From an uncultured Desulfovibrio sp. (GTDB lineage Bacteria > Desulfobacterota > Desulfovibrionia > Desulfovibrionales > Desulfovibrionaceae): DNA of 34,357 nt. The stretch lies in assembly GCF_944324525.1 (NCBI RefSeq), contig NZ_CALUWS010000030.1, forward strand, positions 1 through 34,357, given 5' to 3'. Below are positions 11,426 through 34,304 of the stretch, piece by piece (position 1 is the first letter of the stretch; every line of letters begins with the position of its first letter). Position numbers and translations under genes: made by a program. The notes under the pieces are model-generated. The model did not search any database, was not told where the DNA came from, and saw nothing but the letters and a program-made list of their open reading frames with translations.

Positions 11426-12901
11426 TTGCGCGCCAATATCCTTTGCGCCGGTCTCGGGACGCGTCTGCGTCCGCTTACCTATATAAAACCCAAGCCGCTG
11501 CTGAGCATAGGCGGCTACCCGCTGGTGGAGCGCACCATCCGCCAGCTCCGCGCCGACGGCGTGGACGACATCGCGCTGGTGGTGGGCTACAAGCGGGAGT
11601 GCTTTGAATACCTGCGGGAGCGTTACGGCGTCCAGCTCATCGTGTCCGAGCGGTTTGACACGGCCAACAATTTTTCTTCCCTCGAACTGGTGGCGGACAG
11701 GCTGGGAGACAGTCTCGTCATCGACGGGGACCTGTATATTCGCCGTCCGCTGGTGCCGCTGGTGCGGCCCGGCGTGGCCCAGTTCATCACGCAGAAAACG
11801 GAGCGCGGCAAGGAGTGGGAGCTCATCACCGACGACGCGGACCGTGTGGTGGCGGTGAAAAAGGATTCGTCCGAAGGCTATTCCATGTCCGGCGTGTCCT
11901 ACTGGACGGAAGAGGCGGCCGAGCTGCTGCGGCGGGAGCTGGCCCGCAGCGGTCCCGATGATTACTGGGAGGATGCCGCCATCCGCATCCTTGACCGTGT
12001 GCCGGTGTACGCCACGCGGACGAAGCTGCTGCAATGCGAGATCGACAGCCTGGACGACGTGCTGTCGCTGGGGTTGCTCTCGGCCGACGAGCTGGCCGAC
12101 CAGTGCTCGGAGACGAGCATGGCCGAGAAGCTCAAGGGGCTCACCAACGATACGTATCTTATCCGGCTGCACGGCAAGGGGGTGGTGCTGCGCATCCCCG
12201 GCCGGGGGACGGATCAGATCATCGACCGTACGCTGGAGTCGGCCATGCTGGGCCTGCTGGACGGCATGGACATCACGCCGAAGTGCACCTTTTATTCCGG
12301 CGGCATCAAGACCACGGACTTTCTGGAAGATCACGCGGTGCTGACGCCGGAAGGGCTGGACGCATCCACCATCGAGGGGGTGGCCGGTCTCATGCGGCGG
12401 CTGCACGCCATCCCGCTGCCGCAGGGCTTCAAGGAGCAGTACGGCCCCAATGCGGCCCTGTCGGTGCTCAATGAGGTCAAGCTGTACGAGCGTCAGAGCG
12501 GCATCAATCTGCTGGCCGACGAGGAGCGCCGCCAGATCTACGACTTCGCCCGCGAGATGGACCGGGACGAAAAGCGGTTCTGTCACCGGGATTTCGTGCT
12601 GGAGAACATCTTGCGGCGCGGCGAAAGCATGAAGCTCATCGACTTTGAATATGCCTGCTTCTGTTCGCCGTACTGGGATTACGCCAGCTTCGTCACGGAG
12701 ACGCGCCTTGCCGGGGAACGGCTGGAGGCCTTCGTGCGCTGCTGCGGCATGGACCGGCGGCGGTTGCTCAAGGCCATGATCATCGTGGATTACATCTGGG
12801 GCCTGTGGGGCTTTTACCGGGAATGCATCGACTACGGTCGCGGCCGCATCGCGGAGATGGACCGCAACCTGCGCCTGTTGCAGGCGGGGGGCACGCTGTG
12901 A
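11426..12901 (+). CDS. LicC-LicA fusion: CTP:phosphocholine cytidylyltransferase + choline kinase
   Basis: This 491-residue fusion could make CDP-choline from choline, ATP and CTP on one chain. Residues 1-230 are a nucleotidyltransferase: RANILCAGLGTRLRPLT, KPKPLL and IDGDLYI (metal-binding Asp). Residues about 235-491 are a LicA/choline-kinase-type kinase: TNDTYLIRLHGKGVVLRIPG and GTDQIIDRTLE near its start, then HRDFVLEN with H387, D389 and N394, and IDFEY with D406 and E408, the catalytic and metal residues of the fold. The usual order is separate licA and licC genes. I chose the TTG at 11426 because AAGGGG lies 7 bases upstream and it puts the initiator directly before RANILCAGLGT. The frame stays open to an ATG at 11201, but those 75 codons look non-coding. 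Ethanolamine is an alternative substrate. Confidence 0.8.
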   Translation: MRANILCAGLGTRLRPLTYIKPKPLLSIGGYPLVERTIRQLRADGVDDIALVVGYKRECFEYLRERYGVQLIVSERFDTANNFSSLELVADRLGDSLVIDGDLYIRRPLVPLVRPGVAQFITQKTERGKEWELITDDADRVVAVKKDSSEGYSMSGVSYWTEEAAELLRRELARSGPDDYWEDAAIRILDRVPVYATRTKLLQCEIDSLDDVLSLGLLSADELADQCSETSMAEKLKGLTNDTYLIRLHGKGVVLRIPGRGTDQIIDRTLESAMLGLLDGMDITPKCTFYSGGIKTTDFLEDHAVLTPEGLDASTIEGVAGLMRRLHAIPLPQGFKEQYGPNAALSVLNEVKLYERQSGINLLADEERRQIYDFAREMDRDEKRFCHRDFVLENILRRGESMKLIDFEYACFCSPYWDYASFVTETRLAGERLEAFVRCCGMDRRRLLKAMIIVDYIWGLWGFYRECIDYGRGRIAEMDRNLRLLQAGGTL

Positions 12902-14298
12902 GGCCGTTCCTTTCTTTGCCGGCGGTGCGCTATCTGGGGCTGCTGGCCCTGCTGGAGGCGGCCTTCCCAGCGCCCGCACAGGCCTATCTTGACCCCGGCA
13001 CGGGCAACATCCTCGTGTATGTGGCCATCAGCCTGGTGGGCACGATCCTCTATTTCCTGAAAAACCTCGTCTATGCGATCATGGGAAGGGCGCGGGGCGA
13101 GCAGGCGGGACGGCGGGAGCTGCACCATGAGCGTATCCTGCTCTTTTCCGAAGGGCGGAGCTATTACTATACGTTCAAGCCCATCATCGACTCCCTCCTG
13201 CGGCGGGGCATCCCCTTTTCCTATATCACGATGGATGTGGAAGACCCGGCCCTGACCATCGAGGACGACCTCATGGATTCCCGCTACATCGGCAACGGCG
13301 CGGCGGCCTACGCACGGGCGGCTGGCCGCCGGGCGGACGTCATGCTGTCCACCACGCCCAACATCGGCACGCCGGGCTTCCCCATGCCGAGGCCGCGCCG
13401 GGTGCGCTGTCTGGCCCATGTCTGCCACGGCGTGGGGGACATCGCCATGTACCAGAAAGGTTCCCTCGACCACTACGATGCCGTGCTCATGGTGGGGGAT
13501 TTCATGCTGCCGAGCATCCGCCGTCTGGAGGAGCTGCGCGGCCTGCCCGCCAAGGAGTGCGTCTCCCTCGGTCTGCCCTATCTGGACGAGCTGGCGCGCA
13601 AGGCGCAGCCCAAAAAGGAGCGGAGCACGCCGGCCGTGGTGCTGGTGGCCCCGTCCTGGGGCAACAAGGGCTGTCTTTCGGTCTGCGGGCCGCAATTCCT
13701 GGTGGATCTGGCCAAGGCGGGGTATGAGGTCATCTTCCGGCCGCATCCGCAGTCGCTCAAGGTGGAGACGGACATGCTGGCCTCCGTCCATGAGCTGCTG
13801 CGCGACTTCCCCAACGTGCATTTCGACACGGATATGGACGCCACCGCTTCCATGAGCCGGGCCGACATCATGATCTCCGACAAGTCGTGCGTGCGCTTCG
13901 ACTTCGCGTTCCTTTACGAAAAGCCGGTCATCACGCTGGATATCCCGGTACGTAACCCCGAACTCTATGAAGTGGCGGATCTGGGCGTGATCTGGGAGGA
14001 TACCGTGGCCGCCCGGCTGGGCGAGGTCGTCGCCCCGGATCAGTTCGACCGCATCCTGCCCGCCGTGGAGCGGGCCCTTGCCATGCCTTCCGCGGCGCTG
14101 GCGGCCTTCCGCGATCAATGCGTGGCCTGCCGGGGCTGGAGCGGGGAGGCCATCGTGGACTGGACGCTGGAGGTGCTGCAGCGCCACGATGCCCGCCAGG
14201 GCGAGCGGACGGCGGATGCCCGGCAGCAGGGCGGCACGCCCGGCGGCCAGCCCGGAACGACGCCGGAAACGGCGCACCCGGGACAGGCCTCGGCATGA
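12898..14298 (+). CDS. CDP-glycerol:glycerophosphotransferase-family protein (TagB/TagF-like)
   Basis: This 466-residue protein has the Glyphos_transf fold used to add glycerol-phosphate (or related alcohol-phosphate) units to polymers. Landmarks are HVCHGVGD, GLPYLDEL, FRPHP (the conserved RPHP) and the C-terminal ISDKSCVRFDFAFLYEKPVI, which matches the usual SDxSSxxFDF motif. The GTG start at 12898 overlaps the stop of licCA by GTGA, with a purine-rich AGGCGGGGGG upstream, so translation is coupled. The first about 21 residues are signal-like (ending APAQA), followed by YLDPGTGN and one membrane helix (about 30-50), so it is anchored; orientation is uncertain. The C-terminal 30 residues are low complexity. 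It may transfer glycerol-P or, given the neighbour, phosphocholine. Confidence 0.8.
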   Translation: MRPFLSLPAVRYLGLLALLEAAFPAPAQAYLDPGTGNILVYVAISLVGTILYFLKNLVYAIMGRARGEQAGRRELHHERILLFSEGRSYYYTFKPIIDSLLRRGIPFSYITMDVEDPALTIEDDLMDSRYIGNGAAAYARAAGRRADVMLSTTPNIGTPGFPMPRPRRVRCLAHVCHGVGDIAMYQKGSLDHYDAVLMVGDFMLPSIRRLEELRGLPAKECVSLGLPYLDELARKAQPKKERSTPAVVLVAPSWGNKGCLSVCGPQFLVDLAKAGYEVIFRPHPQSLKVETDMLASVHELLRDFPNVHFDTDMDATASMSRADIMISDKSCVRFDFAFLYEKPVITLDIPVRNPELYEVADLGVIWEDTVAARLGEVVAPDQFDRILPAVERALAMPSAALAAFRDQCVACRGWSGEAIVDWTLEVLQRHDARQGERTADARQQGGTPGGQPGTTPETAHPGQASA

Positions 14299-14452: not shown

Positions 14453-16993
14453 ATGATGTCATTGCTTTACGAGATATTCATCCTCCCCATCGAGATCATC
14501 TATCGTGCCATCTATCTTGGCAGCGTGCAGCTCACCGGCAATTACGGCTTGAGCATACTGGTGCTGTCGGCCGTGAGCGCCGTGGCCTTCATCCCGCTGG
14601 GACGGCTGGCCGTGGGCATGCAGGCCGGAGAAAAGAAGGTGCAGCAGATCATGGCTCCCCAGCTCGCCCGCATCCGCAGCGAGTCCAAGGGGGCCGAGCG
14701 CCAGCGCCGCATCAACCGCCTGTACCGCCGCTATGCCTATCATCCGCTGCTGGCCATCCGTTCGGCCTTCGGCGTGGCCCTGCAGATCCCCTTTCTGACG
14801 GGCGCGTATTACATGATCCTGAGCCTCGACCAGCTGCGGGGACAGTCCTTCCTCTGCATCGCCGACCTCTCGCAGCCGGACGGTCTGCTCTGGGGCGTGA
14901 ACTTCCTGCCCATCCTCATGACCGTAGTCAACATCACGGCCACCTTCACCACGCCGGGCCTGAGCCGCAAGGACAGGATACAGGCCGTGATCATCGCCTT
15001 TTTCTTCCTGTTGCTGCTCTACGGCGCGGCCTCGGCCCTGCTCATCTTCTGGACCATGAACAACGTCTTTTTCCTGCTCCAGAACCTGCGCCTGCCGGTG
15101 AAGCTTCCGCGTTTCCGCAGGCCCGCCTTCGCTCAGGGCGCCATGAGCACGGCCGCGACCTCGCTGCTGCGCAGCGTCTACAGCCTGTCCTGCGCCGGGC
15201 TGGCCGCGCTGCTCTTCCTCTATGTGCCGTTCCAGACGTACGCTTCGGATCCGGCCTTCTTCGCCAGCGGGCCGCTGGACGTGCTGCTGGACATGGTGCG
15301 CTATCTGTCGCTGACCTTCTTCATCGTCTTCGTGCTCTGGCTGTGGTTCCCCGCCCGGGGCAAGGCCATCCCGGCCTTTGTGGCCTTCTGGGCCCTGTGT
15401 CTGGCCTTTGTGAACGTCTTCGTGCTGCCCGGCGACTTTGGCGCGCTGGACGGCACCCGCTTCCTGGACGAGGCCCGTATAGGCCGGCCCATGCGCCTCT
15501 TTGCCGATGCCCTGCTGCCCGTGCTCGTGGCGCTGGCGGCGGCAGCGGTCGCCTTTGCGCCGGCGCGGGTGCGCCGGGCGCTGCCGGGCGTGCTGTCCAT
15601 CGCGCTCTTTTCCCTGCTGGTGCTGGCGGGCTATTCGGGCATCTCCTCGCTGGGCGCGGTGGAGGAAGATACGGCCTTCACGCCGCCGCCCTACACGCAG
15701 GCCATGCAGTCCTATTCCCGCAAGGGAGAAAACGTCATCGTGGTCATCCTGGACATGTTCACCGGCGGCCACATCGAGAAGATGTTGGACGATCCGTGGT
15801 TCGATGACTTCCGGGCCGATATGGACGGTTTCGTCTGGTATCCCGACACGGTGTCCATGGCGGACGCCACCATATTGAGCCTGCCCAGCATCTACGGCGG
15901 CCACGGCTACAGCCCGGCAGCCACCAACGGGCGGCGCTCCCTGACGCTGGAGGAGACCGTCAACAAGGCCTTTGCCCTCATGCCGCGCAACTTCGCGGCC
16001 CATGACTACGACGTGTCCGTCATCAACGGCCTGGAATACTTCAATGAGGAGCTCTATGCCCGGCACGGCGGCAAGGCGGACAACATCCTCACCGTGCCGC
16101 GCGTGCGCCGGACCTTCCTGCGCAAGTATTATGACGACGTGGGCCTGCGCGACTTCAGCAGCTTTTTCGCCATACTGGGGCTCTTCCAGGCCTCGCCGGA
16201 CATGCTCAAGCAGAAGCTCTACGATGACGGCAACTGGAAGAACGCCGGGGACGGCATCCTGGCCGCCAGCATGGACTTTTACAAGGAAGAGGACGCCTAT
16301 TTCCGCTATGTGTTCACGTCCGGCATCACGGCGGACGCGCCGCGCAGCACGGCCAAGATCTTCTATACCATGCTCTCGCATTATATGTGGCACTACGCGC
16401 CGGATCTCGTGGACGGCGCGCCGCGCATCGTGGCCGATCCCTGCCCGGAGACGGAAGGGCAGCTCATCCACAAGGGCGGCGTTCTGCCGGAGCACTACTA
16501 CGCCGAGCGCCACCTCATGCGGTATCTCATGATCTTCTTCAAGCAGCTCAAGGAGGCGGGCGTCTACGACAATTCGCGCATCATCCTCGTCTCCGACCAC
16601 GGCGAGCGGGACAGCCAGATGGTGGCCCGCGCCTACAACGACGGCAAGGAATTCGCCGACGGCGTCCCCTACGGCAGCGGACGCTACGCCCCCGGCCGGC
16701 CTCACGCCCTGCTCATGGTCAAGGAGCCGGGACAGCGCGGGCCGCTGCGCATCAACGAGGCCTTCATGTCCAGCGCCGACGTGCCGCTGCTGGCCCTCAA
16801 GGGCATCGGCCAATGCGACGAGTTCACCCTGTACGACCCGGCCCGCGTGCCGGCGCCGCGCGTGCTGACCCACGCCCGCGGCGGCGCGCGCTGGAGCGAA
16901 CACAAGCGGAAAGCCTATATCTACGAACAGCACCGGCTGGAAGGGACCCTCTTCGACCCGGCCCGCAATACGCTGGAAGGGAACTACGATTAG
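14453..16993 (+). CDS. YidC/Oxa1-like domain fused to a membrane sulfatase-fold phosphotransferase
   Basis: An 846-residue membrane protein. Residues 1-215 look like YidC/Oxa1: the first helix pair, a basic cytosolic hairpin (KKVQQIMAPQLARIR, RRINRLYRRYAYHPL) and ALQIPFLTGAYYMI, then three more helices. R51 after the first conserved helix is where YidC has its groove arginine. Residues about 240-400 hold five further helices, as in LtaS/OpgB. Residues about 425-846 are an alkaline-phosphatase-superfamily domain with D434, candidate nucleophile T473 in DATILSLPSI, and D715-H716 in SDHGERD. Such domains transfer phosphoglycerol or phosphoethanolamine from phospholipids, or hydrolyse sulfate esters. 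I know of no common family with this fusion. The ATG at 14453 is preceded by GGAG at 11 bases; the ATG at 14456 is equally possible. No frameshift joins the parts. Confidence 0.8.
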   Translation: MMSLLYEIFILPIEIIYRAIYLGSVQLTGNYGLSILVLSAVSAVAFIPLGRLAVGMQAGEKKVQQIMAPQLARIRSESKGAERQRRINRLYRRYAYHPLLAIRSAFGVALQIPFLTGAYYMILSLDQLRGQSFLCIADLSQPDGLLWGVNFLPILMTVVNITATFTTPGLSRKDRIQAVIIAFFFLLLLYGAASALLIFWTMNNVFFLLQNLRLPVKLPRFRRPAFAQGAMSTAATSLLRSVYSLSCAGLAALLFLYVPFQTYASDPAFFASGPLDVLLDMVRYLSLTFFIVFVLWLWFPARGKAIPAFVAFWALCLAFVNVFVLPGDFGALDGTRFLDEARIGRPMRLFADALLPVLVALAAAAVAFAPARVRRALPGVLSIALFSLLVLAGYSGISSLGAVEEDTAFTPPPYTQAMQSYSRKGENVIVVILDMFTGGHIEKMLDDPWFDDFRADMDGFVWYPDTVSMADATILSLPSIYGGHGYSPAATNGRRSLTLEETVNKAFALMPRNFAAHDYDVSVINGLEYFNEELYARHGGKADNILTVPRVRRTFLRKYYDDVGLRDFSSFFAILGLFQASPDMLKQKLYDDGNWKNAGDGILAASMDFYKEEDAYFRYVFTSGITADAPRSTAKIFYTMLSHYMWHYAPDLVDGAPRIVADPCPETEGQLIHKGGVLPEHYYAERHLMRYLMIFFKQLKEAGVYDNSRIILVSDHGERDSQMVARAYNDGKEFADGVPYGSGRYAPGRPHALLMVKEPGQRGPLRINEAFMSSADVPLLALKGIGQCDEFTLYDPARVPAPRVLTHARGGARWSEHKRKAYIYEQHRLEGTLFDPARNTLEGNYD

Positions 16994-17148: not shown

Positions 17149-18264
17149 ATGGACACACAGACAACCCGGATGGCGGGCATCCCCAGTCCGGCAGCGGCGG
17201 CGGCCCGGGACATCCTTTTTCGCCGTTATCGCACCTACGGCATTGCGGTGGCCGTGCTTTCCGGCATGTCCTACGGCCTGTATTCGGCCTTCATGGCGCT
17301 GGGCATGAGCCTTGGCGTCTGGGACGGCTGGTACGAGAAAGGATCTGGCTTGTCCGCGGTGGCCACACTCTTTCTGCTCAGTGCGTTGGGCGCGGCGGTG
17401 ACGGACAGTTTCAGCGCGCTCTGGTCGCTGCTGCTTGCCGCGCTCAAGGGCAAGCTCGGCGACGTGCCCCGTAGCTGGCGCACGCGCCCCGGCGTCATCA
17501 TGACGGCGGCGGCCTTCATCGGTGGGCCGCTGGCCAGCACCTGTTATGTGCTGGGTCTGCAGAACGCCGGTTCGATGGTGGTGCCGTTGAGCGCCCTGTG
17601 TCCGGCCATCGGGGCCATTCTCGGACGAGTAGTCTTCAAGCAGACGCTCAACGTGCGGATCATGACGGGCATCCTCATCTGCTTTGCCGCCAGCTTCATG
17701 ATCGGCAGCACGGGGCTGACGGATGACGCGCCCGCCAATCTTTATCTGGGGCTGGCCTTCGGCCTGCTGGCCGCGTTGGGCTGGGGCGTCGAGGGCTGCG
17801 TCTGCGGCTACGGCACGGCGCTCATCGACCCGGAAGTGGGCATCACCATCCGGCAGCTCACGTCCGGCCTGTCCAATCTTTTCCTGCTGGTGCCGCTGTT
17901 CGGCTGGCTCGGCGGCGCGGATGCGGCGGGCATGGCCGTTGCCGCCTTCACGGATCCCCAATCGGTGGGCTGGTTCGTGGTGGCCGGCTTCTGCGCCTAT
18001 TTTGCCTTCATGCTCTGGTATCAGGGCAACGCCATGTGCGGCGCGGCCCTGGGCATGGCCTGCAACGGGGCCTTCTCCTTCTGGGGGCCGTTCTTCATCT
18101 GGCTGGTGCTCGGGGTCTACTACGGCATGGAGGACAAGAACATGCCGCCCATAGCCTGGCTGGCCTCGCTGGTCATGATCTGCGGCATTTTCCTCATCGC
18201 CGTCAATCCGTTGGATCTGTTCCGCCGCGGGTATCAAGGGAGGAAAGACCGTGAAGCCGCTTAA
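17149..18264 (+). CDS. DMT/EamA-type transporter, possible choline importer (LicB-like)
   Basis: A 371-residue protein with about ten hydrophobic helices, in two halves of five as in the drug/metabolite transporter superfamily. Glycine-rich helices such as VAVLSGMSYGLYSAFMALG, AAAFIGGPLASTCYVLGLQ and GAALGMACNGAFSFWGPFF, and MVVPLSALCPAIGAILGRVV, fit EamA-type carriers. LicB choline permeases belong to this superfamily, and the position behind LicC-LicA makes choline import the best guess, but nothing in the sequence fixes the substrate. The ATG at 17149 has AAGGA eight bases upstream; the frame is open to 17080 without support. It overlaps the next gene by 14 bases. Confidence 0.75.
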   Translation: MDTQTTRMAGIPSPAAAAARDILFRRYRTYGIAVAVLSGMSYGLYSAFMALGMSLGVWDGWYEKGSGLSAVATLFLLSALGAAVTDSFSALWSLLLAALKGKLGDVPRSWRTRPGVIMTAAAFIGGPLASTCYVLGLQNAGSMVVPLSALCPAIGAILGRVVFKQTLNVRIMTGILICFAASFMIGSTGLTDDAPANLYLGLAFGLLAALGWGVEGCVCGYGTALIDPEVGITIRQLTSGLSNLFLLVPLFGWLGGADAAGMAVAAFTDPQSVGWFVVAGFCAYFAFMLWYQGNAMCGAALGMACNGAFSFWGPFFIWLVLGVYYGMEDKNMPPIAWLASLVMICGIFLIAVNPLDLFRRGYQGRKDREAA

Positions 18265-18544: not shown

Positions 18545-20182
18545 ATGCGAAACGGGCGAAGGCGCGGAGCCTGCCTTTTGCGGCGCGGGGCGACTCTCGC
18601 GCTGTGGGCCCTGCTGGCGGCAGGCGGCGCGCAGGCGGGCGGGACGGAGGCGGCGCGGGGCGGGGAGCTGCGCCTCCTGCACACCAATGATACCCATGCC
18701 CATCTGGCCGGACTGGACGCCCAGGGGCAGGCCTGCTTTACGGACGAGGCCTGCCGGGGCGGCATGGGCCGCATCGCCGCCGCCATCGATGCCGCGCGGC
18801 GCGAAGGAGACAACGTGCTTGCGCTGGATGCGGGGGATCAATTTCAGGGCACGTTGTTCTACTCGGTGGAAAAATGGCCCGTGCTGGCCGAATATGCCCG
18901 CCGCATGCCTTATGATGCCATGACCCTGGGCAACCATGAATTTGACGAGGGCTGCGGCCCGCTCCGACGATTCCTTGACGCGCAGCCCATCCCCGTGGTG
19001 GCGGCCAATCTCGCGCCTGAGCGGGCTTGTCCCCTGTTCGGGAGCCGGATCAAGCCTTTTCTGGTACGGAATGTGCAAGGCGAAAAAGTCGGTATCGTCG
19101 GACTGGCCAATGACCGCGTGACGGCGCAGGCGCAGGCCTGCCCGCAGACGCGTTTCCTCGATGCGGCGGAAAGCCTGCGGCAGGCTGTGACGGCGCTGGA
19201 AGCGCAGGGGGTGCGCCGCATCGTGGCGCTGTCCCACCTGGGCCTGTCCGCCGACCGCACGCTAGCCCGTCAGGTGGACGGGGTGGACGTCATCGTGGGC
19301 GGCCATACGCACGCCTATCTTGGCCCCGGTGCGGCGGCAGGGCAGTATCCCCTTGTGGAACATTCGCCGTCCGGCCAGCCGGTGCTGGTGGTGACGGCTG
19401 CCTGGGGAACGCGATATGTCGGGGATCTTGTCGTGAGTTTTGATGCGCGGGGCATCCCCGTGCAATGGCGGGGCGAGGCGCGCGAGTTGCGGGCCGAGGC
19501 CCCCCGGCGAGAGGACATTTCCGCGCTGACGGCGCGGCACGCCGCCGAGCTTGAACGCTACCAGGCGCATAAGGTGGGCCGCCATGACGTGGAGGCTCCC
19601 GACGGCATGGAAGCCTGCCGCAGCGGAGAATGCTTCGGCGGCATGCTGCTGGCGGATGCCTTCCTGGCCTATGCGCGTCCGCAGGGCGCGGAGGTGGCGC
19701 TGCTCAACGGCGGCAGCATCCGTGCGGCCATCCCGCCCGGCGAGGTGGACAGGGGCCGGCTGCTGGCGGCCATCCCCTTCGGCAATGTCGTGGTGTTGCG
19801 CGAATATACGGGCAACCAGCTCCTTCAGGCGCTGGAGCACGGCGTGGCCGGGGAGGGCGGCAAAGGGCCCGCCCTCCTGCAGGTGGCGGGCTTGCGTTAT
19901 ACTGTGGATGCCGTACGTCCGGCCGGCAGCCGCATCGTGTCCGCGGACATGGTCTCGGCTGAGGGCAGGGCGACGCCGCTGGAGACGGAAAGACGCTACC
20001 GCGTGGCGCTGCCTGCCTATCTGGCGCGTGGCGGCGACGGCTACGGCATGCTGCGGGACGGCAGGGAACTCCCTCTGGAGCCCATGAAGGACGTGGATGT
20101 GGCGGAAGCCTATCTTGAAGCGCAATCTCCGCTGACGCGGATGCGCAGGGGCCGGATCTGCCGGACAGAGGAGAGCAGGTAG
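18545..20182 (+). CDS. UshA-like periplasmic 5'-nucleotidase / nucleotide pyrophosphatase
   Basis: A 545-residue secreted metallophosphoesterase. A signal peptide (basic start, then LALWALLAAGGAQA) is followed by the family signature LLHTNDTHAHL (about 40-50), ALDAGDQFQG, TLGNHEFDEG and VGGHTHAYLG, which carry the two-metal site. The C-terminal 5'-nucleotidase domain has the expected NGGSIRA and LPAYLARGGDGYG segments that bind the nucleotide. Such enzymes hydrolyse nucleotides or UDP-sugars, and UshA has been reported to cleave CDP-alcohols, a possible link to the upstream CDP-choline genes. It follows the small protein by 12 bases, with GGAG upstream of the ATG. No terminator until 20388. 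Confidence 0.9.
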   Translation: MRNGRRRGACLLRRGATLALWALLAAGGAQAGGTEAARGGELRLLHTNDTHAHLAGLDAQGQACFTDEACRGGMGRIAAAIDAARREGDNVLALDAGDQFQGTLFYSVEKWPVLAEYARRMPYDAMTLGNHEFDEGCGPLRRFLDAQPIPVVAANLAPERACPLFGSRIKPFLVRNVQGEKVGIVGLANDRVTAQAQACPQTRFLDAAESLRQAVTALEAQGVRRIVALSHLGLSADRTLARQVDGVDVIVGGHTHAYLGPGAAAGQYPLVEHSPSGQPVLVVTAAWGTRYVGDLVVSFDARGIPVQWRGEARELRAEAPRREDISALTARHAAELERYQAHKVGRHDVEAPDGMEACRSGECFGGMLLADAFLAYARPQGAEVALLNGGSIRAAIPPGEVDRGRLLAAIPFGNVVVLREYTGNQLLQALEHGVAGEGGKGPALLQVAGLRYTVDAVRPAGSRIVSADMVSAEGRATPLETERRYRVALPAYLARGGDGYGMLRDGRELPLEPMKDVDVAEAYLEAQSPLTRMRRGRICRTEESR

Positions 20183-23269: not shown

Positions 23270-24979
23270 ATGAACAGCATCGATCCCGCGTCTTCTCTTT
23301 CTTCCTCACTGGTTGCCGGCGCCATGCGTCAGCTTGAGAACATGTCGGCGGAACAGTCCGCCCAGCAGCCCGCCGCTATGCCGGGCGGCGACGTGGTGAC
23401 TTTGTCGCCGCAGGCGGCATCGACGGTGACGGCCGCGCTCGGCTATCAGCTGGGGGACAAGCTTTCGTCGTCACTGTCGGACGGGACGCTGGTGACGGTG
23501 GGGCGGCGGCAGGACATCATCCAGGGTGAGACGCCCACGTATACGATGACGTTCACGGGCGGATCAGGCTCCTCATTTTCCTTTGATTTTCAGGGGGATG
23601 TCAGCGTTCGCCGCTACGGCGACGGCTACGCCGTGTATGACGCCGTCAACAATGTGGCCGACGTGTACGGCGCGGACGGCTCGAAAAACCGTTTCAGCGG
23701 CCTGCTGGAAGATGCGGATGCCGGGGCGGAGACGGTATATGTCAATCTGAGCGGCGGCACGGTGGATACGGGCGACGGCGATAATCTCATATTTGCCTAC
23801 GGCAGCGGCACGGTGATCAATGGCGGCAGCGGAGACGACACCGTCGTTTTCAGCGGCGACGTGTCCGATGTGACCGTGAACGGCGGCGACGGCAACGACA
23901 CGGTGATCGCCAGGGGGACGCTCTCCAATGCCACGCTGGATCTGGGCGAGGGAAACAATCGTGTGGATGTGGCGCAGATGTCCGGCGGCAGGCTGGACGG
24001 CGGCAACGGCAATAATGACGTGAGCATCCACAACGTCAGCGGCGGCGCGCGGATCCGGCTTGGCGACGGCAGCAACCGGCTGGACGTGTACGGCCTTTAC
24101 GACACGTCGTCCGTGACGCTGGGCGACGGCGGCAATACCGTGGGGGTGGAGTCGCTCAAGGGGAGCGCCCGTCTGGAGCTTGGCGGCGGCAACAACAAGG
24201 TGGACATCTACGGCATCTACGGGACGTCGTCCGTGACGCTGGGCGACGGCAGCAACCGCATCGACGTCTACGAGCTGGAAAACGACGCCGCGCTGACGGC
24301 GGGCAACGGCGACAATACGGTGAACATCTACGAACTGCGGTCGCAATCTTCCTTTACGCTGGGCAACGGCAACAACAGCGTCAACGCTTACGGGAGCAGC
24401 GGCAGCGCCTCCATGAACTTCGGGGACGGCTCCAACACCATGCAGATGTACGAAAGCCTGGGCTCGTCCGGCATCCGCTTCGGCAACGGGAGCAACGCCA
24501 TGCGGATCTACGAGATGGAGGAACGATCCTCCGTGGGCTTCGGCAACGGCAACAATATGTTCATTGCCTATCAGCTGCTGGACGACGCCTCGGCGGACTT
24601 CGGGGACGGCAATAATATCGCCGTCGCGGGTTCTGTCTTCGACAACGCCTCGGTACGCTTCGGGGACGGCAACAATCTGCTGTTTGCCATGAGCGTTTCC
24701 GGAAATGTCTCCATCACCGGCGGCAAGGGCAACAACCTCTTCCTTATCGAAACGCTGTCCAGCGGCTCGGTGAGCGGTGGGGGCTCGGTCATCCGTTTTG
24801 ACGAGCCGGGCGACGATGCGGGCAAGCGTGGGGCTGTCGATGCCTGGAACGAGGCCGTGAGCGGCATGGTCGCGCCGGGCGGCGGATCGTTGCGTTTTGA
24901 GGACCTCCATTCCACCATCTACAACTGGGACGGTTTTTCCTCCATATTCTCCACGGCCTACTGGTGGAACCGGGGCTAG
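23270..24979 (+). CDS. Beta-solenoid repeat protein with 17 turns of a 20-residue GxGxN repeat
   Basis: A 569-residue protein that I cannot name. Residues about 168-505 consist of 17 successive repeats, nearly all exactly 20 residues, consensus GDGxNxhxhYxhxxxxShxh, for example GDGSNRLDVYGLYDTSSVTL. The first turns (GSGDDTVVF, GDGNDTVIA) look like RTX calcium-binding nonapeptides, and later turns keep Asn instead of Asp. A right-handed beta-solenoid is the natural prediction. Residues 1-165 have no Sec signal, and the last 60 residues are Trp/Ser-rich and might contain a type I secretion signal, but that is not demonstrable. The ATG at 23270 has AGGAG seven bases upstream. It stands alone and ends before a strong terminator region. 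Surface or extracellular structural role is inferred. Confidence 0.75.
   Translation: MNSIDPASSLSSSLVAGAMRQLENMSAEQSAQQPAAMPGGDVVTLSPQAASTVTAALGYQLGDKLSSSLSDGTLVTVGRRQDIIQGETPTYTMTFTGGSGSSFSFDFQGDVSVRRYGDGYAVYDAVNNVADVYGADGSKNRFSGLLEDADAGAETVYVNLSGGTVDTGDGDNLIFAYGSGTVINGGSGDDTVVFSGDVSDVTVNGGDGNDTVIARGTLSNATLDLGEGNNRVDVAQMSGGRLDGGNGNNDVSIHNVSGGARIRLGDGSNRLDVYGLYDTSSVTLGDGGNTVGVESLKGSARLELGGGNNKVDIYGIYGTSSVTLGDGSNRIDVYELENDAALTAGNGDNTVNIYELRSQSSFTLGNGNNSVNAYGSSGSASMNFGDGSNTMQMYESLGSSGIRFGNGSNAMRIYEMEERSSVGFGNGNNMFIAYQLLDDASADFGDGNNIAVAGSVFDNASVRFGDGNNLLFAMSVSGNVSITGGKGNNLFLIETLSSGSVSGGGSVIRFDEPGDDAGKRGAVDAWNEAVSGMVAPGGGSLRFEDLHSTIYNWDGFSSIFSTAYWWNRG
23768..24790 (+). repeat. 60-bp tandem repeats encoding the solenoid turns
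   Basis: About 17 copies of a roughly 60-bp unit, often containing GGCGACGGCAGCAAC or GGCAACGGCAACAAC. Copies have diverged at other positions, so the array is old or under selection, but it offers material for recombination. Confidence 0.85.
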
Positions 24980-30026: not shown

Positions 30027-31103
30027 TCAGACAAAGCTTTCGTAGCGTTTGGGACAGCGAAGGCAGGGGGGCGGGGGGGCGTCGTGGCTCAAGTCGCCGC
30101 GAAAGTCGGCAAACTCCGGCCGTTGCCAGACGTCCAGCGCGTCGTCGTGCGGGAGTCGGCCGAAGACCCACGGGGACGCCGTGGCCGAGGGCTGGGCGCA
30201 GGGCACATTGACGTAGATGCAGGGGGAGATGCAGCCGTCGGCATCCACATAACAACTTTTGTCGATGGCCTCGCGGCAGGCGTGGATGGGGCGGGCCTGC
30301 GGCAGGCCGTAGCGGATGCGGCGGCCGTCGGCGGCGGCGCGGACGGCGATCTCTTCCAGCAGGGCGCGGGCGGCGGCGATCTTTTCGGTCTCCTCCGGCG
30401 CAAAGGCAAGCCGGCGGTGTTCCGGCAGCACGGGCATGTCCAATGTGCTGACCACACAGACGGGCACGTCCCACTCCCGCATGAGTTCGGGCAGGCGGCG
30501 GGCGCTCTCCTCATTGCCCGCCAGCAGCAGGTAAGCCAGATGCACGCGCGGGCCGTCCCGGCGCAGGCGTCGTCTGACCGTCTGCAGACAGGCCACGGCC
30601 TGTTCCACGCGGGCAAAGGGCACATGCCGTCGGGCCGCATTGCCCGCCTCGTCCGTACCGGCAAGCGAAAAGGCGAGGATGTCCATGCCGCTGCGCACGA
30701 TGCCCTCGGCCAGCGCCTCATCCATGCGGAGGCCGCAGGTGGTGCTGGAAACGGCGCAGCCCGCATCCCGTGCCAGCGCCACATAGTCAAGGAAGCGCGG
30801 ATGCAGGAGCGGCTCCCCCCAGCCCTGCAAGTGTATGCGGCGGCTGCGGCGCATGAGCGGCCAGAGCGCCGCAAAGGTGCTGTCGGCCATGTGCCGCGCC
30901 CGCCAGGTGCCGGCATGGATGGCACGCGGACAGTAACAGCAGGCCCCCGGACAATGGGAGGTCACTTCCACCTGTATGTGCTGCAGCGGACGGTCGTCCG
31001 TCCAGCGCTCCCGCAGCCGTCCCCACCAGCCCGGACGCCGCCGGGCGGTTTCGGCCAGCGGGTCGGGGGCTTGCGTGCGTTTTTCCCTGTCTGTCCGCGG
31101 CAT
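30027..31103 (-). CDS. Radical SAM / SPASM-type protein
   Basis: A 358-residue radical SAM enzyme. The [4Fe-4S] motif CxxxCxxC is CPGACCYC at residues 51-58, followed by family elements LQGWGEPLLHPRFL, VSSTTCGLRMDEALAEG and DILAFSLAG. Near the C-terminus are clustered cysteines (SCYVDADGCISPCIYVNVPC and PCLRCPKRY), which fit a SPASM-like auxiliary cluster used for peptide or protein modification, as in peptide-maturation enzymes and anaerobic sulfatase activators. The substrate is unknown. A sulfatase-fold protein occurs elsewhere in the window, but its catalytic residue is Thr, not the Cys/Ser that such activators modify. The ATG at 31103 has GGAGG nine bases upstream; the frame extends to 31271 without support. 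It follows the acyltransferase genes on the same strand after about 335 bases of repeats. Confidence 0.85.
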   Translation of the reverse strand: MPRTDREKRTQAPDPLAETARRRPGWWGRLRERWTDDRPLQHIQVEVTSHCPGACCYCPRAIHAGTWRARHMADSTFAALWPLMRRSRRIHLQGWGEPLLHPRFLDYVALARDAGCAVSSTTCGLRMDEALAEGIVRSGMDILAFSLAGTDEAGNAARRHVPFARVEQAVACLQTVRRRLRRDGPRVHLAYLLLAGNEESARRLPELMREWDVPVCVVSTLDMPVLPEHRRLAFAPEETEKIAAARALLEEIAVRAAADGRRIRYGLPQARPIHACREAIDKSCYVDADGCISPCIYVNVPCAQPSATASPWVFGRLPHDDALDVWQRPEFADFRGDLSHDAPPPPCLRCPKRYESFV

Positions 31104-31165
31104 GGTCCATCGCCTCCATGAAGATAGTTTTCGTCCCTCGTACTTTTCCCAACCCCTTTTCCATC

Positions 31166-31220
31166 CCGCCGGGAGACCGCCAGCCGAAAGGATGACTTGC
31201 GGGCCGCCTTGCCCGTGAGC
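31166..31220 (-). repeat. Repeat A tail, inverted, first of two
   Basis: CCGCCGGGAGACCGCCAGCC through GGGCCGCCTTGCCCGTGAGC. It recurs at about 80% identity 107 bases further on (31273-31327), and its inverse resembles 45-110 at the left end of the window. Bases 31218-31245 also match repeat C inverted. Confidence 0.6.
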
Positions 31221-31272
31221 ATTTTCCGTTTGAAACGCTGTGCCGCCGTCTCGGACTCTATCTTCCTCCATT

Positions 31273-31422
31273 CCGCCGGGGGACCTGCAGCCGAAGGGAC
31301 GGCTTACGGGCCGCCTTGCCCTTGCATCCTCCTGAATAAAGCGCGCTGGGGAAGGGATGGGGGGACTGGGGGGAAGGGGAACCCCTCACGCGCGAGCTGA
31401 GGGGTTCCCCTTCCCCCCAGTC
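31273..31422 (-). repeat. Hairpin repeat family A with tail, inverted
   Basis: The arms 31364-31388 and 31398-31422 are a perfect 25-bp stem with a 9-base loop, the longest in the window. The tail runs leftwards. It starts 16 bases after the stop of the acyltransferase gene read on the minus strand, so it may end that message. Confidence 0.8.
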
Positions 31423-31438
31423 TGACAACGCCCAGCGT

Positions 31439-32365
31439 TCACGCTTCCTGTCGATCGCCGCGCAGGCGGGTGAGCAGGCGCGCCAGCAGGGAAGGTCGGC
31501 TGGGGGCGGCGATGTCCCAGGCGCATTCGACATACGGCAGCCAGGGCTCTGCCTGCCATTTGCGTTTGAAGAAGCGGATGCCGTCGTGGATGCCCAGCCC
31601 CAGATTGCAGCGGCGTTGCCCGCGCCGGGCGGCTTCTTCCAGCAGAGCGAGGAGGAGGGCGTCCGCTGTGCCGGGGGGCGCGTCGGAGCTGCGGAAGGCG
31701 AAGAGGTAGAAGGCGGTGGCGTAGGCGGCATGGTCGGCCACGGCCAGCGCGCAGAGGCTGCCGTCGGACAGGCGTCGGGCCGAGTAGCAGCGGGCCGCCG
31801 GGCCTGCCACGCGCAAATAGTGCCCGATGCGGGTAAAGAGCAGGGCGGAAGCGCCGGAAAGGGCGCGCTCGCCGGGCTGGCTTTGCAGGCGGCGGCCGGC
31901 CTCCAGCACGAGGTCCTCGTGCTCGCCTGTCCAGCCTTCGCCGCCGTGCTGGTCGATGCGGATCTCCCGCAGGGCGCGGCGTATCTGATTGCCGAGCTTG
32001 CCGCCGGGCGTGGGCACGGGCAGAGGCACGCTCCAGCAGGCGTCTTCATGACAATGGGCCGAGGGGGGAACGCAGCGGGGCCGGAAGGGGGCCAGCATCA
32101 CCAGATGACGTACCCAGGGCAGGGAGGCGGCGAGGACGGCGGCTTCCTCGATGGATTGGCGCTCCGCCGGGCCGAAGGGCGGTTCCGTGAGCGGGAAGGC
32201 GGTCAGCACAAGGCGGTCATCCTGCCGCCAGCCGAGGCAGGAGCCTACGCGCAGGGGGCGCATGCCGCTCATGCCGCGCACATAGTGGACGAGCTGCTCG
32301 GGGACGAGCGCCCCAAGGCTGAAGTCGCGCCAGTCGCCGTCAGACATCTCGTGGCCGTCAGTCAT
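31439..32365 (-). CDS. GNAT/FemAB-like acyltransferase domain protein
   Basis: A 308-residue protein of the BioF2/Acetyltransf_6-like type. The best-conserved part is the C-terminal ALLEEAARRGQRRCNLGLGI followed by HDGIRFFKRKWQAEPWLPYVE, which closely parallels GLGVNAGISRFKRKW in the neighbouring fusion protein: shared pattern GLGxxxGIxxFKRKWxxxPxLxY. Such proteins transfer acyl or aminoacyl groups; the substrate is unknown. No signal peptide is seen. The ATG at 32365 has GGGAGG seven bases before and overlaps the stop of the upstream gene as ATGACTGA, so the pair is translationally coupled. A GTG two codons earlier is an alternative start. Confidence 0.7.
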   Translation of the reverse strand: MTDGHEMSDGDWRDFSLGALVPEQLVHYVRGMSGMRPLRVGSCLGWRQDDRLVLTAFPLTEPPFGPAERQSIEEAAVLAASLPWVRHLVMLAPFRPRCVPPSAHCHEDACWSVPLPVPTPGGKLGNQIRRALREIRIDQHGGEGWTGEHEDLVLEAGRRLQSQPGERALSGASALLFTRIGHYLRVAGPAARCYSARRLSDGSLCALAVADHAAYATAFYLFAFRSSDAPPGTADALLLALLEEAARRGQRRCNLGLGIHDGIRFFKRKWQAEPWLPYVECAWDIAAPSRPSLLARLLTRLRGDRQEA

Positions 32366-34151
32366 CGTCACCCTCCCGGGGGCCGCGCAGTTTCCGCCGC
32401 AGCCGGAAGAACAGACCCCGGCCCGCGGGAGTGACGGTAAAGCCGTCCTCGCGCAGCATGTGCCGCAGATTGAGCAAATGGGCCGAACCCACCAGCGCGC
32501 AACAGCCGCCGCGTTCCAGATAGGGACGCATGCGCTCGCGGAAACGCTGATCCCGTTCCGCGATCACTTGCCCCGTGCGGGTGGGGAACTCCGTGCTGGT
32601 GCCCATCATGCCGATAAGGTCCCCGCTCAAATAGGTGCGGACATTGGCCCGCAGGTAGGCGGCCCATTGCCCGCAAGTGCGAAAATGCGCCACGGCCCGC
32701 GCGGGGGGCACGCTCTCCAGCGCGGCGATCTGCTCGGAGAGGTCTTCCATGGCCAGCACGCGCCTGCCCATGTCGTGGGCCGTGCGCCAGGCTTCCAGAT
32801 CCACGGAATACCGCCAGCCGCGCCGTTCCAGATAAGCGCACCAGAGGGAAAAGAAGGCGTACCACGGGCGTGTCCGGCGCAGGAACCAGTCCACATCGGC
32901 CTTGTCCGCCGCTTCCATGTTGAGGGCGCGCCAGAACGGCCCCTCCGGCCCGCGTACCACACGCGCCAGCGCGGCCCGCTCCACCGGGGTCAGCAGGTCG
33001 TAGAGGCAGGCCTCGGGCGCGGGCGGACGCTTGCCCGCCCGGGCGACCGTCTCAAGGCTGTCCTCGTCCAGATGGCCTTCAAAGAGGACGGTGTCCACCT
33101 CCCGGAACAGGCGCTTGAACGCGCTTTCAAAGGAGTAGGGGAAAAAGTGGGCCGTGCCGCCCAGCCAGGACGTGCGGCCGTTCTTTTCCACTTTCCAGAG
33201 CATGCGGAAGGGACGCTGCACCTGCGCGTGCTCCATCTCGCGCTGGGCCTCGCGCCAGGCGGCGTCAGGATCGGTATGCATGCTCTCCAGCAACGCCAGC
33301 AGGAAAGCTTCGTCCCTCTTGGGTTCTTCCCAGTCAGCGCGAATGTAGCGCAGGGCGGGGCGTCCGCCCCATTTGCGCTTGAAACGGCTGATGCCCGCAT
33401 TGACGCCCAGTCCCAGATGGATGAAACGCTTGCCCCGCCGCCGCGCCCGTTCCAGCATGAGCGCAAAGAGCGCGTCCGTGGCGTAGGGCGTCGCGTGTTC
33501 TCGCGAATGCGCGCCCAGCAGGTAGGTGTCGAAATGCGCCGGGGCCTCGTCCATGACCAGGCAGGCGGCCAGGTGTCCGTCGGCGTCAAAGGCATTGAGC
33601 AGGTGGACGCGGCAGCGCTCGTCCCGCAGCAGGTCCTCCACCCGGCCGTACAGCGCGCGCACCGACGGCGGCAGGGACGCGCGCCCCAGGAATTCCCCCC
33701 ACAGGCGGCGATGCGCGGGCGTGAACTCTCGTCCGTCTTCCAGCCGCAATGCCGCCCGAGCCCGTGCCAGCGGCGCACGCAGCCGCGCAGGCACGGGGGC
33801 CTGCGCCGACAGCACATAATACCGGTCCGTTTCCGTCGTATGCCCGCGCAACGACGCAGGCAGGCGCGGCGACATGAGATGGAATATCCGTGCCCCGGTG
33901 CGGCGTTTCGCCTCCCGGAAGGCCGCCTCAAAAGCCGCCGGAGATGTTCCCCCCGTCAGCGCATACCCGATGCCGATAAGCCGCTCCCCGGCATGGAAAA
34001 ACAGATAGTCGTCCACCTGCAGCGGCGTGCCGCCCGAGGCAACAGCCATGAGGGCCGGGGAATGCTCTGGGATGCGGGCCGGAAAATCAACGGCGGACAA
34101 AAGCGGCGTATCTGCACCAACAACAGATGGCTGGACGGAGGATGTCGGCAT
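32358..34151 (-). CDS. Fusion of acyltransferase-like domain and TraB/GumN (Tiki-like) domain
   Basis: A 597-residue protein. Residues about 20-285 are a GNAT/FemAB-like domain that is paralogous to the downstream gene (HLGLGVNAGISRFKRKWGGRPALRY at about 255-280). Residues about 320-590 are a TraB/GumN domain: the first GxxH motif is GTAH (332-335), a conserved glutamate is E358 in LFEGH, and the second GxxH motif is GSAH (555-558). These three features define the putative metallopeptidase site of the TraB/Tiki family, and all are intact. No signal peptide is obvious, so a cytoplasmic location is likely. The ATG at 34151 has AGGAGA eight bases upstream; 17 upstream codons are also open. It is the first gene of a unit with the single-domain acyltransferase. 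Confidence 0.8.
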   Translation of the reverse strand: MPTSSVQPSVVGADTPLLSAVDFPARIPEHSPALMAVASGGTPLQVDDYLFFHAGERLIGIGYALTGGTSPAAFEAAFREAKRRTGARIFHLMSPRLPASLRGHTTETDRYYVLSAQAPVPARLRAPLARARAALRLEDGREFTPAHRRLWGEFLGRASLPPSVRALYGRVEDLLRDERCRVHLLNAFDADGHLAACLVMDEAPAHFDTYLLGAHSREHATPYATDALFALMLERARRRGKRFIHLGLGVNAGISRFKRKWGGRPALRYIRADWEEPKRDEAFLLALLESMHTDPDAAWREAQREMEHAQVQRPFRMLWKVEKNGRTSWLGGTAHFFPYSFESAFKRLFREVDTVLFEGHLDEDSLETVARAGKRPPAPEACLYDLLTPVERAALARVVRGPEGPFWRALNMEAADKADVDWFLRRTRPWYAFFSLWCAYLERRGWRYSVDLEAWRTAHDMGRRVLAMEDLSEQIAALESVPPARAVAHFRTCGQWAAYLRANVRTYLSGDLIGMMGTSTEFPTRTGQVIAERDQRFRERMRPYLERGGCCALVGSAHLLNLRHMLREDGFTVTPAGRGLFFRLRRKLRGPREGDDD

Positions 34152-34304
34152 GGCGGTTCTCCTGCACAGCCCCAGCATAGCCGCCGGCAATGCCCCCGCC
34201 AAGCAAAAAATACCCCCACCCCCGCCCCCGCCCCTTGTCTTTCCTTCTTCAATGCGGCAGATTTATTCTGTTGTGTTGATTTTATGGGGGGAGGATATTT
34301 TTTC
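34152..34304. other. Upstream region of the acyltransferase-TraB gene
   Basis: A C-rich stretch (34190-34235) and an AT-rich patch (34250-34285) that probably contains the minus-strand promoter. I cannot choose -35 and -10 hexamers with confidence. Confidence 0.3.

Follow-up and report, generated by a model that had tools for sequence, protein, structure and literature searches.

A YidC-like domain fused to a sulfatase-fold, LtaS/OpgB-like enzyme in Desulfovibrio, and its pairing with a TagF-like gene

We analyzed a 34,357-nucleotide stretch of DNA from an uncultured Desulfovibrio sp., a sulfate reducer of the gut (contig NZ_CALUWS010000030.1; hereafter the window), that encodes, at 14453..16993 on the + strand, an 846-residue protein in which a YidC/Oxa1-like domain is followed by five hydrophobic segments and a sulfatase-fold catalytic domain resembling LtaS and OpgB. 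The YidC-like domain belongs to a separate clade that has lost the basic residue of the insertase groove, and a TagF-like enzyme encoded by the preceding gene is the near-strict partner of the fusion. We propose tentatively, and with less than even confidence, that the fusion forms the membrane end of a short pathway by which a phosphate-linked headgroup (P–X, where X is an alcohol) passes from the cytosol to the outside.

The fusion protein and its domains

The preliminary description of this DNA had read an uninterrupted frame with a YidC-like N-terminal part, five further helices, and a sulfatase-fold catalytic domain containing D434, T473, and D715–H716, and all of these elements were recovered here. 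The gene is a single unbroken open reading frame (ORF) with an ATG start at 14453 or 14456 and orthologues of the same length. The Pfam hidden Markov model PF02096 matched residues 31–212 (14543..15088 +) with an E value of 2.6e-17 and 63.7 bits, above the cutoff of 35, TIGR03592 matched at 6.8e-17 and 62.1 bits, below its cutoff of 84.3, and comparison with the sequences of solved structures in the PDB matched YidC structures, with BhYidC2 at 1.4e-10. Hydropathy and charge pattern placed five hydrophobic segments with alternating positive loops at residues 242–394 (15176..15634 +), which separate the YidC core from the catalytic domain (residues 427–846; 15731..16990 +); relatives have four to nine such segments. 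The fusion genes of four loci (L037, L038, L041, and L044) are longer and encode nine hydrophobic segments rather than five, for which the topology would stay the same.

The sulfatase assignment stood at the level of the family and not for the window sequence alone. PF00884 matched the latter weakly (E 0.0026, residues 593–736, below cutoff), whereas 12 of 17 family members, window included, reached E 0.01 or lower, the best match being at 2.1e-8; PF02096 matched 17 of 17 at the same threshold. In a profile comparison with hhalign, E. coli OpgB aligned with residues 287–720, spanning the helices and the catalytic part (probability 87, E 4e-6), and a search of the PDB with the fusion profile found LtaS at 6.6e-4. 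The earlier comparison with enzymes of the LtaS, OpgB, and EptA type was supported for OpgB and LtaS; assignment to the EptA (phosphoethanolamine) type found no support, as the alignment was not significant. D434, T473, H643 (a residue added here), D715, and H716 were each conserved in 16/16 family members, excluding the protein of locus L040, whose catalytic part differs and does not align. From the roles of their counterparts in LtaS, we take D434, T473, D715, and H716 to be metal-ligand and threonine-nucleophile positions.

In known topologies, the C-terminus of YidC and the N-terminus of the transferase are both cytosolic. Because these topologies and the charge pattern would place both joined termini in the cytosol, the joint is topologically natural. 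The catalytic domain is predicted to lie outside the membrane, after five transmembrane helices. AlphaFold2 models of the full chain (mean predicted local distance difference test score, pLDDT, 32; 7 close sequences in the alignment) and of the N-terminal 222 residues (mean pLDDT 49, predicted template modeling score 0.30; 8 close sequences) were both of low confidence, and the fold assignment is therefore based on sequence.

The fusion is real and patchily distributed

A sequencing-caused join was the artifact feared in the preliminary description. A contig scan built on short patterns, and so confined to close relatives, found the fusion full-length in six records at 74–97% identity, two of them from Desulfovibrio piger, and a seventh record held the first 210 residues. 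Frames of 846 residues occur in D. piger records and metagenome-assembled genomes, and the fusion is present in the single-contig assemblies G649 and G685. Because same-length frames recur in several records and in single-contig assemblies, the fusion is real, and a join introduced by sequencing or assembly is ruled out.

Whole-genome searches for the fusion covered the window's own phylum, as the class (n = 348), the family (n = 199), and a phylum sample (n = 395). At 1e-18, 27 of the 348 class genomes matched, a count that includes G689, in which the YidC-like part alone lies at a contig edge, and G042, in which a YidC-like part 54% identical to that of the window is followed by a different C-terminal part that has no Pfam match and in which motifs of the E, T, and DHG kind can be made out by eye. 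The phylum sample gave three fusion matches, one of them (G451) from another family. These genomes, the 27 of the class and G451, answer the earlier suggestion to look elsewhere for the same domain order and to list its neighbors, which include TagF-like and nucleotidyltransferase genes. Distribution is patchy: 3 of 16 genomes of the window's genus in the family sample, its own included, carry the fusion. In the class search, which covered 59 genera, the fusion occurs in seven and the TagF-like gene in eight.

Searches of plasmids gave no relatives for P0001, with three records matching the YidC part only, at 24–26% identity; among viral contigs, no relative was confirmed in 47 pattern matches; and no second sulfatase protein was found in the window's own genome. 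A phage or defence protein was considered and rejected, as neither PHROGs nor PADLOC gave a match at E 0.01.

Some loci depart from the common arrangement. At L045 (8650–14119 +) and L097 (1–4775 −), two tandem fusion genes stand behind a single TagF-like gene; their YidC-like parts are near-identical, and the catalytic parts at L045 have diverged. At L040 (8240–10696 +), the same YidC-like domain and TagF-like neighbor accompany a different C-terminal part without a Pfam match, and the upstream nucleotidyltransferase is most like an inositol-phosphate cytidylyltransferase, below cutoff.

We found no description, by title or abstract start, in the literature on proteins combining YidC/60KD_IMP with a sulfatase-type, phosphoglycerol or lipoteichoic acid transferase, LicD, or glycerophosphotransferase part. 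The preliminary description knew of no standard family joining these domains. Taken singly, the parts belong to known kinds; their combination and the altered YidC clade appear to be new.

A separate YidC-like clade with altered groove residues

The window's own genome encodes a separate housekeeping YidC in a 587-residue frame. When the YidC domains of 17 fusions and 12 housekeeping proteins were placed on one tree, each group formed one side of a branch with support of 100/100, and the L040 domain nested within the fusion group (97/92); the tree program warns of some long-branch joins. Groove residues were compared in 17 fusions and 12 housekeeping copies, chosen by a script rule from a subset of the genomes. 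At the position of the basic groove residue, which is A43 in the window by comparison with BhYidC2 and the housekeeping copies (14579..14581 +), the residue was K in 12/12 housekeeping proteins, R in BhYidC2, and basic in 0/17 fusions. All 17 fusions have E60, R103, G107, N150, T157, N160, and T201, none of which occurs in any of the 12 housekeeping copies. At R103 (14759..14761 +) the housekeeping proteins have S or G (12/12), and residue matches near this position adjoin a three-residue gap and are alignment-dependent. Q111, P113, W200, and N204 were common to all 29 proteins. As shared residues are kept and groove residues exchanged, the YidC core has been retained and the chemistry of the groove altered. 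In the phylum sample, the YidC-like query gave nine matches at 1e-16, of which three were fusions and six were frames of 514–542 residues that we have taken as housekeeping YidC rather than stand-alone members of the clade.

A TagF-like gene accompanies the fusion

Directly preceding the fusion gene is a gene for a TagF-like CDP-alcohol (cytidine diphosphate-alcohol) phosphotransferase (12898..14298 +), with a GTG start that, in our reading, overlaps the stop codon of LicC-LicA, described below. PF04464 matched its product at 25.5 bits, above the cutoff of 22.1, and was above cutoff in three of four scanned relatives, all except that of L049. The family profile matched Cps3D, TarL, and TagF in the PDB, the capsule polymerase Cps3D being the best solved relative. 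The protein has a signal-like N-terminus, a YLDPGTG motif, one hydrophobic segment, and a Glyphos_transf domain; Y30, D32, P33, G34, and G36 of the motif were invariant in 11/11 TagF-like proteins, and R281-P-H-P was likewise invariant in this family.

The class search detected a TagF-like gene at 1e-8 in 27 of the 348 genomes, comprising 26 of the 27 with the fusion and 1 of the 321 others (Fisher p 6e-37, a statistic that ignores kinship), and the corresponding counts in the family sample were 14/15 and 0/184. The two genes adjoin in 24 of the 26 genomes that carry both; in G642 and G111, they lie on different contigs, with the fusion at a contig end. In G049, the fusion genome without a TagF-like match, the 4.5-kb contig ends beside the fusion. 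When identity matrices were correlated across 14 loci, the YidC-like domain gave r 0.96 with the TagF-like protein and 0.88 with the catalytic domain, a gap that is a bare numerical difference.

Genes for headgroup supply

Upstream of the TagF-like gene lies a LicC-LicA fusion gene (11426..12901 +; TTG start in our reading) whose product joins a part like CTP:phosphocholine cytidylyltransferase to a part like choline kinase. Comparison with the PDB gave LicC (1jyk) at 8e-34 and choline kinase (4r77) at 4.1e-19, with a phosphonate-type nucleotidyl transferase (6pd1) weaker than LicC at 1.5e-10, and PF01633 and PF00483 were above cutoff. The window's genes thus look able to make CDP-choline, and X is here probably choline.

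Of 28 genomes (the 27 class genomes and G451), 23 have a CTP-type nucleotidyltransferase gene in the stretch around the locus, that of G642 being counted on its TagF contig. The five without one nearby (G049, G111, which was represented by its fusion contig, G099, G103, and G672) are all at contig ends. The same queries matched 0/20 control stretches of 18 kb each from six of the genomes; the LicC_L035, NTP_L040, Ppm_L049, and TagD queries were derived from loci later counted with them. The type of nucleotidyltransferase varies among loci and includes LicC-LicA, TagD-like, phosphonate-type, and other proteins. PF01467 was above cutoff in four of four TagD-like genes scanned, and the glycerol-3-phosphate model TIGR01518 was below cutoff in three of three. 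Locus L049 encodes a phosphoenolpyruvate (PEP) mutase–CTP transferase and a phosphonopyruvate decarboxylase, both above NCBI cutoffs, together with a PsrA-like dehydrogenase below its cutoff, and L040, L095, and L035 carry genes like those for sugar nucleotidyltransferases. Our reading is that all of these types would yield phospho- or phosphono-alcohols activated with cytidine monophosphate (CMP). This reading agrees with the common use of nucleotidyl activation in phosphonate pathways (PMC6697681).

Locus L092 (8260–12896 +), from G705, has a TagF-like gene followed by a gene like that for PEP mutase–CTP transferase, 59% identical to that of L049, and further genes there resemble a decarboxylase and a dehydrogenase by eye.

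Downstream of the fusion gene, a gene for an EamA/DMT-type (drug/metabolite) transporter (17149..18264 +; PF00892 E 7.2e-6, below cutoff) is LicB-like by position and a candidate choline importer. It occurs at the same place in L033, L026, L099, and L093; L028 and L034, two stretches from D. piger, gave no match. A search of solved structures by sequence gave no relevant match for its product. LicD had no match in eight of nine genomes tested (the window's own, G000, and seven of eight others), and the TagF-like enzyme is therefore the obvious user of CDP-choline. A search for a dedicated CDP-alcohol lipid synthase with PF01066 gave two matches in eight of nine genomes tested and three in G000, the third of them weak. 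The fusion and LicC-LicA both occur in D. piger, a common gut species, and a phosphocholine-type surface is therefore predicted on that commensal.

Other features of the window

A gene for a 5'-nucleotidase-type protein (18545–20182 +; PF02872 and PF00149 above cutoff) lies 3' of the EamA gene, is also found in L026 and L029, and could recycle nucleotides. A 569-residue protein (23270–24979 +) with short, imperfect G/D/N-rich repeats looks solenoid-like by eye and had no Pfam match at E 0.01. On the − strand, Pfam identified a Radical SAM/SPASM protein that, with two adjoining ORFs, occupies 30027–34202; these two look related by eye, one having a C-terminal TraB/PrgY/gumN domain and the other having no Pfam match.

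Discussion

Starting from the observed presence and pairing of the genes, the identity of the domains, and the change in the groove, our proposal adds a lipid product, its scrambling, a transfer reaction, and a target. A cytidylyltransferase would make CDP-X, in the window CDP-choline made by LicC-LicA, for which homology is strong. At the cytosolic face, the membrane-anchored TagF-like enzyme would convert CDP-X to lipid-P-X, the enzyme class being given by homology and the substrate by conjecture. The YidC-like domain may then bind lipid-P-X and let the lipid cross or hold it at the membrane. Finally, the five-helix sulfatase-fold part would take P–X from the lipid through a metal-bound threonine intermediate and pass it to an envelope glycan or protein, in the way that LtaS and OpgB use phospholipids as donors. 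Enzymes of the LtaS/OpgB type act outside, on lipid donors. With these enzymes outside and CDP-X confined to the inside, such a relay fits the gene set; lipid donors are treated in passages of one source (PMC10434233).

The earlier suggestion that the YidC part holds a lipid-linked acceptor or recruits a partner is compatible with these data. The neighborhood, however, favors a donor linked to lipid, made by conversion of CDP-X to lipid-P-X, and a near-strict partner absent from the preliminary description, the TagF-like enzyme. We prefer the donor route for the co-occurrence of the two genes, the nearby nucleotidyltransferase, the missing LicD, the groove change, the topology, the similarity to OpgB and LtaS, and the correlated identity matrices. 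The YidC-like domain is proposed to move the lipid, since lipid scrambling in vitro is described for YidC, Oxa1, and related proteins (PMC10491306). The fusion, encoded with genes that seem capable of producing activated choline, suggests an insertase fold given over to moving or holding a lipid substrate. Being fused to a lipid-type phosphotransferase, devoid of the insertase groove charge, and marked by fixed residues of its own, this clade offers a natural test case for scrambling as a biological job of the Oxa1 family. A wider reading, which we offer more hesitantly still, is that the Oxa1/YidC fold has become a dedicated translocator of a lipid substrate, coupled to a phosphotransferase. 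Surface phosphocholine and related headgroups would then have a third route, open in modular fashion to choline, to alcohols of the glycerol type, and to phosphonates. In this route, CDP-X would be converted to lipid-P-X inside, scrambled via the YidC-like groove, and used outside by the same polypeptide.

Several points weigh against these proposals. The activity at every step is deduced from sequence and gene context. The substrates of known TagF enzymes are glycerol phosphate or glycans linked to lipid rather than diacylglycerol, and LtaS and OpgB use ordinary phosphatidylglycerol, so a dedicated donor would be unneeded. EptA gave no significant alignment with the fusion in profile comparison. 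The basic groove residue is dispensable in E. coli YidC, and its loss need not imply loss of insertase function; the groove itself cannot be read from either AlphaFold2 model, both being too poor. As to gene pairing, G705 has a TagF-like gene without a fusion match, the TagF-like gene of G642 lies inside an 83-kb contig and is followed by other genes with no fusion, and the TagF-like partner in G451 has no Pfam match. G086 carries LicD genes away from the locus.

The main rival, which we regard as rather unlikely, is that the YidC-like domain is a docking and assembly module that transports no lipid. It would instead bind the TagF-like enzyme, by the single transmembrane segment of the latter and its exported YLDPGTG tip, and keep the two enzymes in one complex. 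The near-strict pairing and adjacency of the two genes would be expected of such a module, the matrix correlation between the YidC-like domain and the TagF-like protein is the highest found, and L040 keeps both of these parts even though its catalytic part no longer matches. Docking by itself leaves unexplained the exchange of groove residues and the choice of an insertase fold; the G049 fusion, which has no TagF-like match, also counts against it, but there the contig ends beside the gene.

Less probable is an acceptor model that builds on the preliminary description. Here a lipid-linked glycan in the cytosol would be decorated or lengthened by the TagF-like enzyme, the YidC-like domain would present or flip that glycan, and the sulfatase-fold part would add further groups taken from ordinary phospholipid. 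Relatives of TagF use lipid-linked acceptors, the best solved relative of the partner is a capsule polymerase, and LtaS and OpgB draw on phosphatidylglycerol, all of which suit the model. Against it, no glycosyltransferase or flippase gene was common to the listed loci when these were read by eye, with no dedicated search, and the type of nucleotidyltransferase changes while the TagF-like/fusion pair stays.

A reading of the C-terminal part as an alkaline phosphatase superfamily hydrolase, and not as a transferase, is very unlikely to hold: hydrolase families are among the weak single-sequence Pfam matches and sulfatases among the PDB profile matches, whereas five helices precede the domain, OpgB is its best tested relative, and synthesis genes are linked to the locus. 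Least probable of all, a working insertase for particular membrane proteins with an incidental fusion would suit the above-cutoff PF02096 match and the four housekeeping residues kept in 17/17 fusions, and it is opposed by the separate housekeeping YidC in the same genome, the basic groove residue missing from 17/17 fusions, and a single long-separated clade whose members, in the class search, all had a C-terminal match except those of G689, at a contig edge, and G042, with its other C-terminal part.

Comparison with known systems

Like the YidC/Oxa1 insertases (PF02096), the fusion has the core match, a basic C1 hairpin, Q111, P113, W200, and N204, and a compatible topology; unlike them, its domain forms a separate clade, has lost the basic groove residue, and is fused to an enzyme. 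With the LtaS/OpgB phosphoglycerol transferases it shares five helices followed by a sulfatase-fold domain and the metal and nucleophile positions, and it differs from them in the YidC-like domain in front and in its TagF-like and CDP-X partner genes.

The locus resembles the Lic-1 pathway (LicA, LicB, LicC, and LicD) in its strong LicC and LicA homologues and departs from it in that LicD has no match in the window's own genome; the EamA transporter, by a weak match, may take the role of LicB. A survey of 26 phosphocholine-bearing species reports no evidence for Lic-1 coexisting within a species with PptA, which transfers phosphocholine and belongs to the same superfamily as the sulfatase-fold domain (PMC10434233). 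Here, Lic-1-type CDP-choline genes are joined at one locus, without LicD, to a sulfatase-fold transferase that, among OpgB, LtaS, and EptA, is nearer the first two.

The partner protein matches the catalytic domain of the TagF/Cps3D/TarL polymerases (PF04464) and has the invariant R281-P-H-P; unlike those enzymes, it is shorter, has a signal-like N-terminus, the YLDPGTG motif, and one membrane segment, and is paired with the fusion. In flippase-synthase fusions of the MprF type, a lipid-moving part is joined to a lipid-modifying enzyme. Our protein would make the same kind of joint, with unrelated folds and on the opposite side of the membrane.

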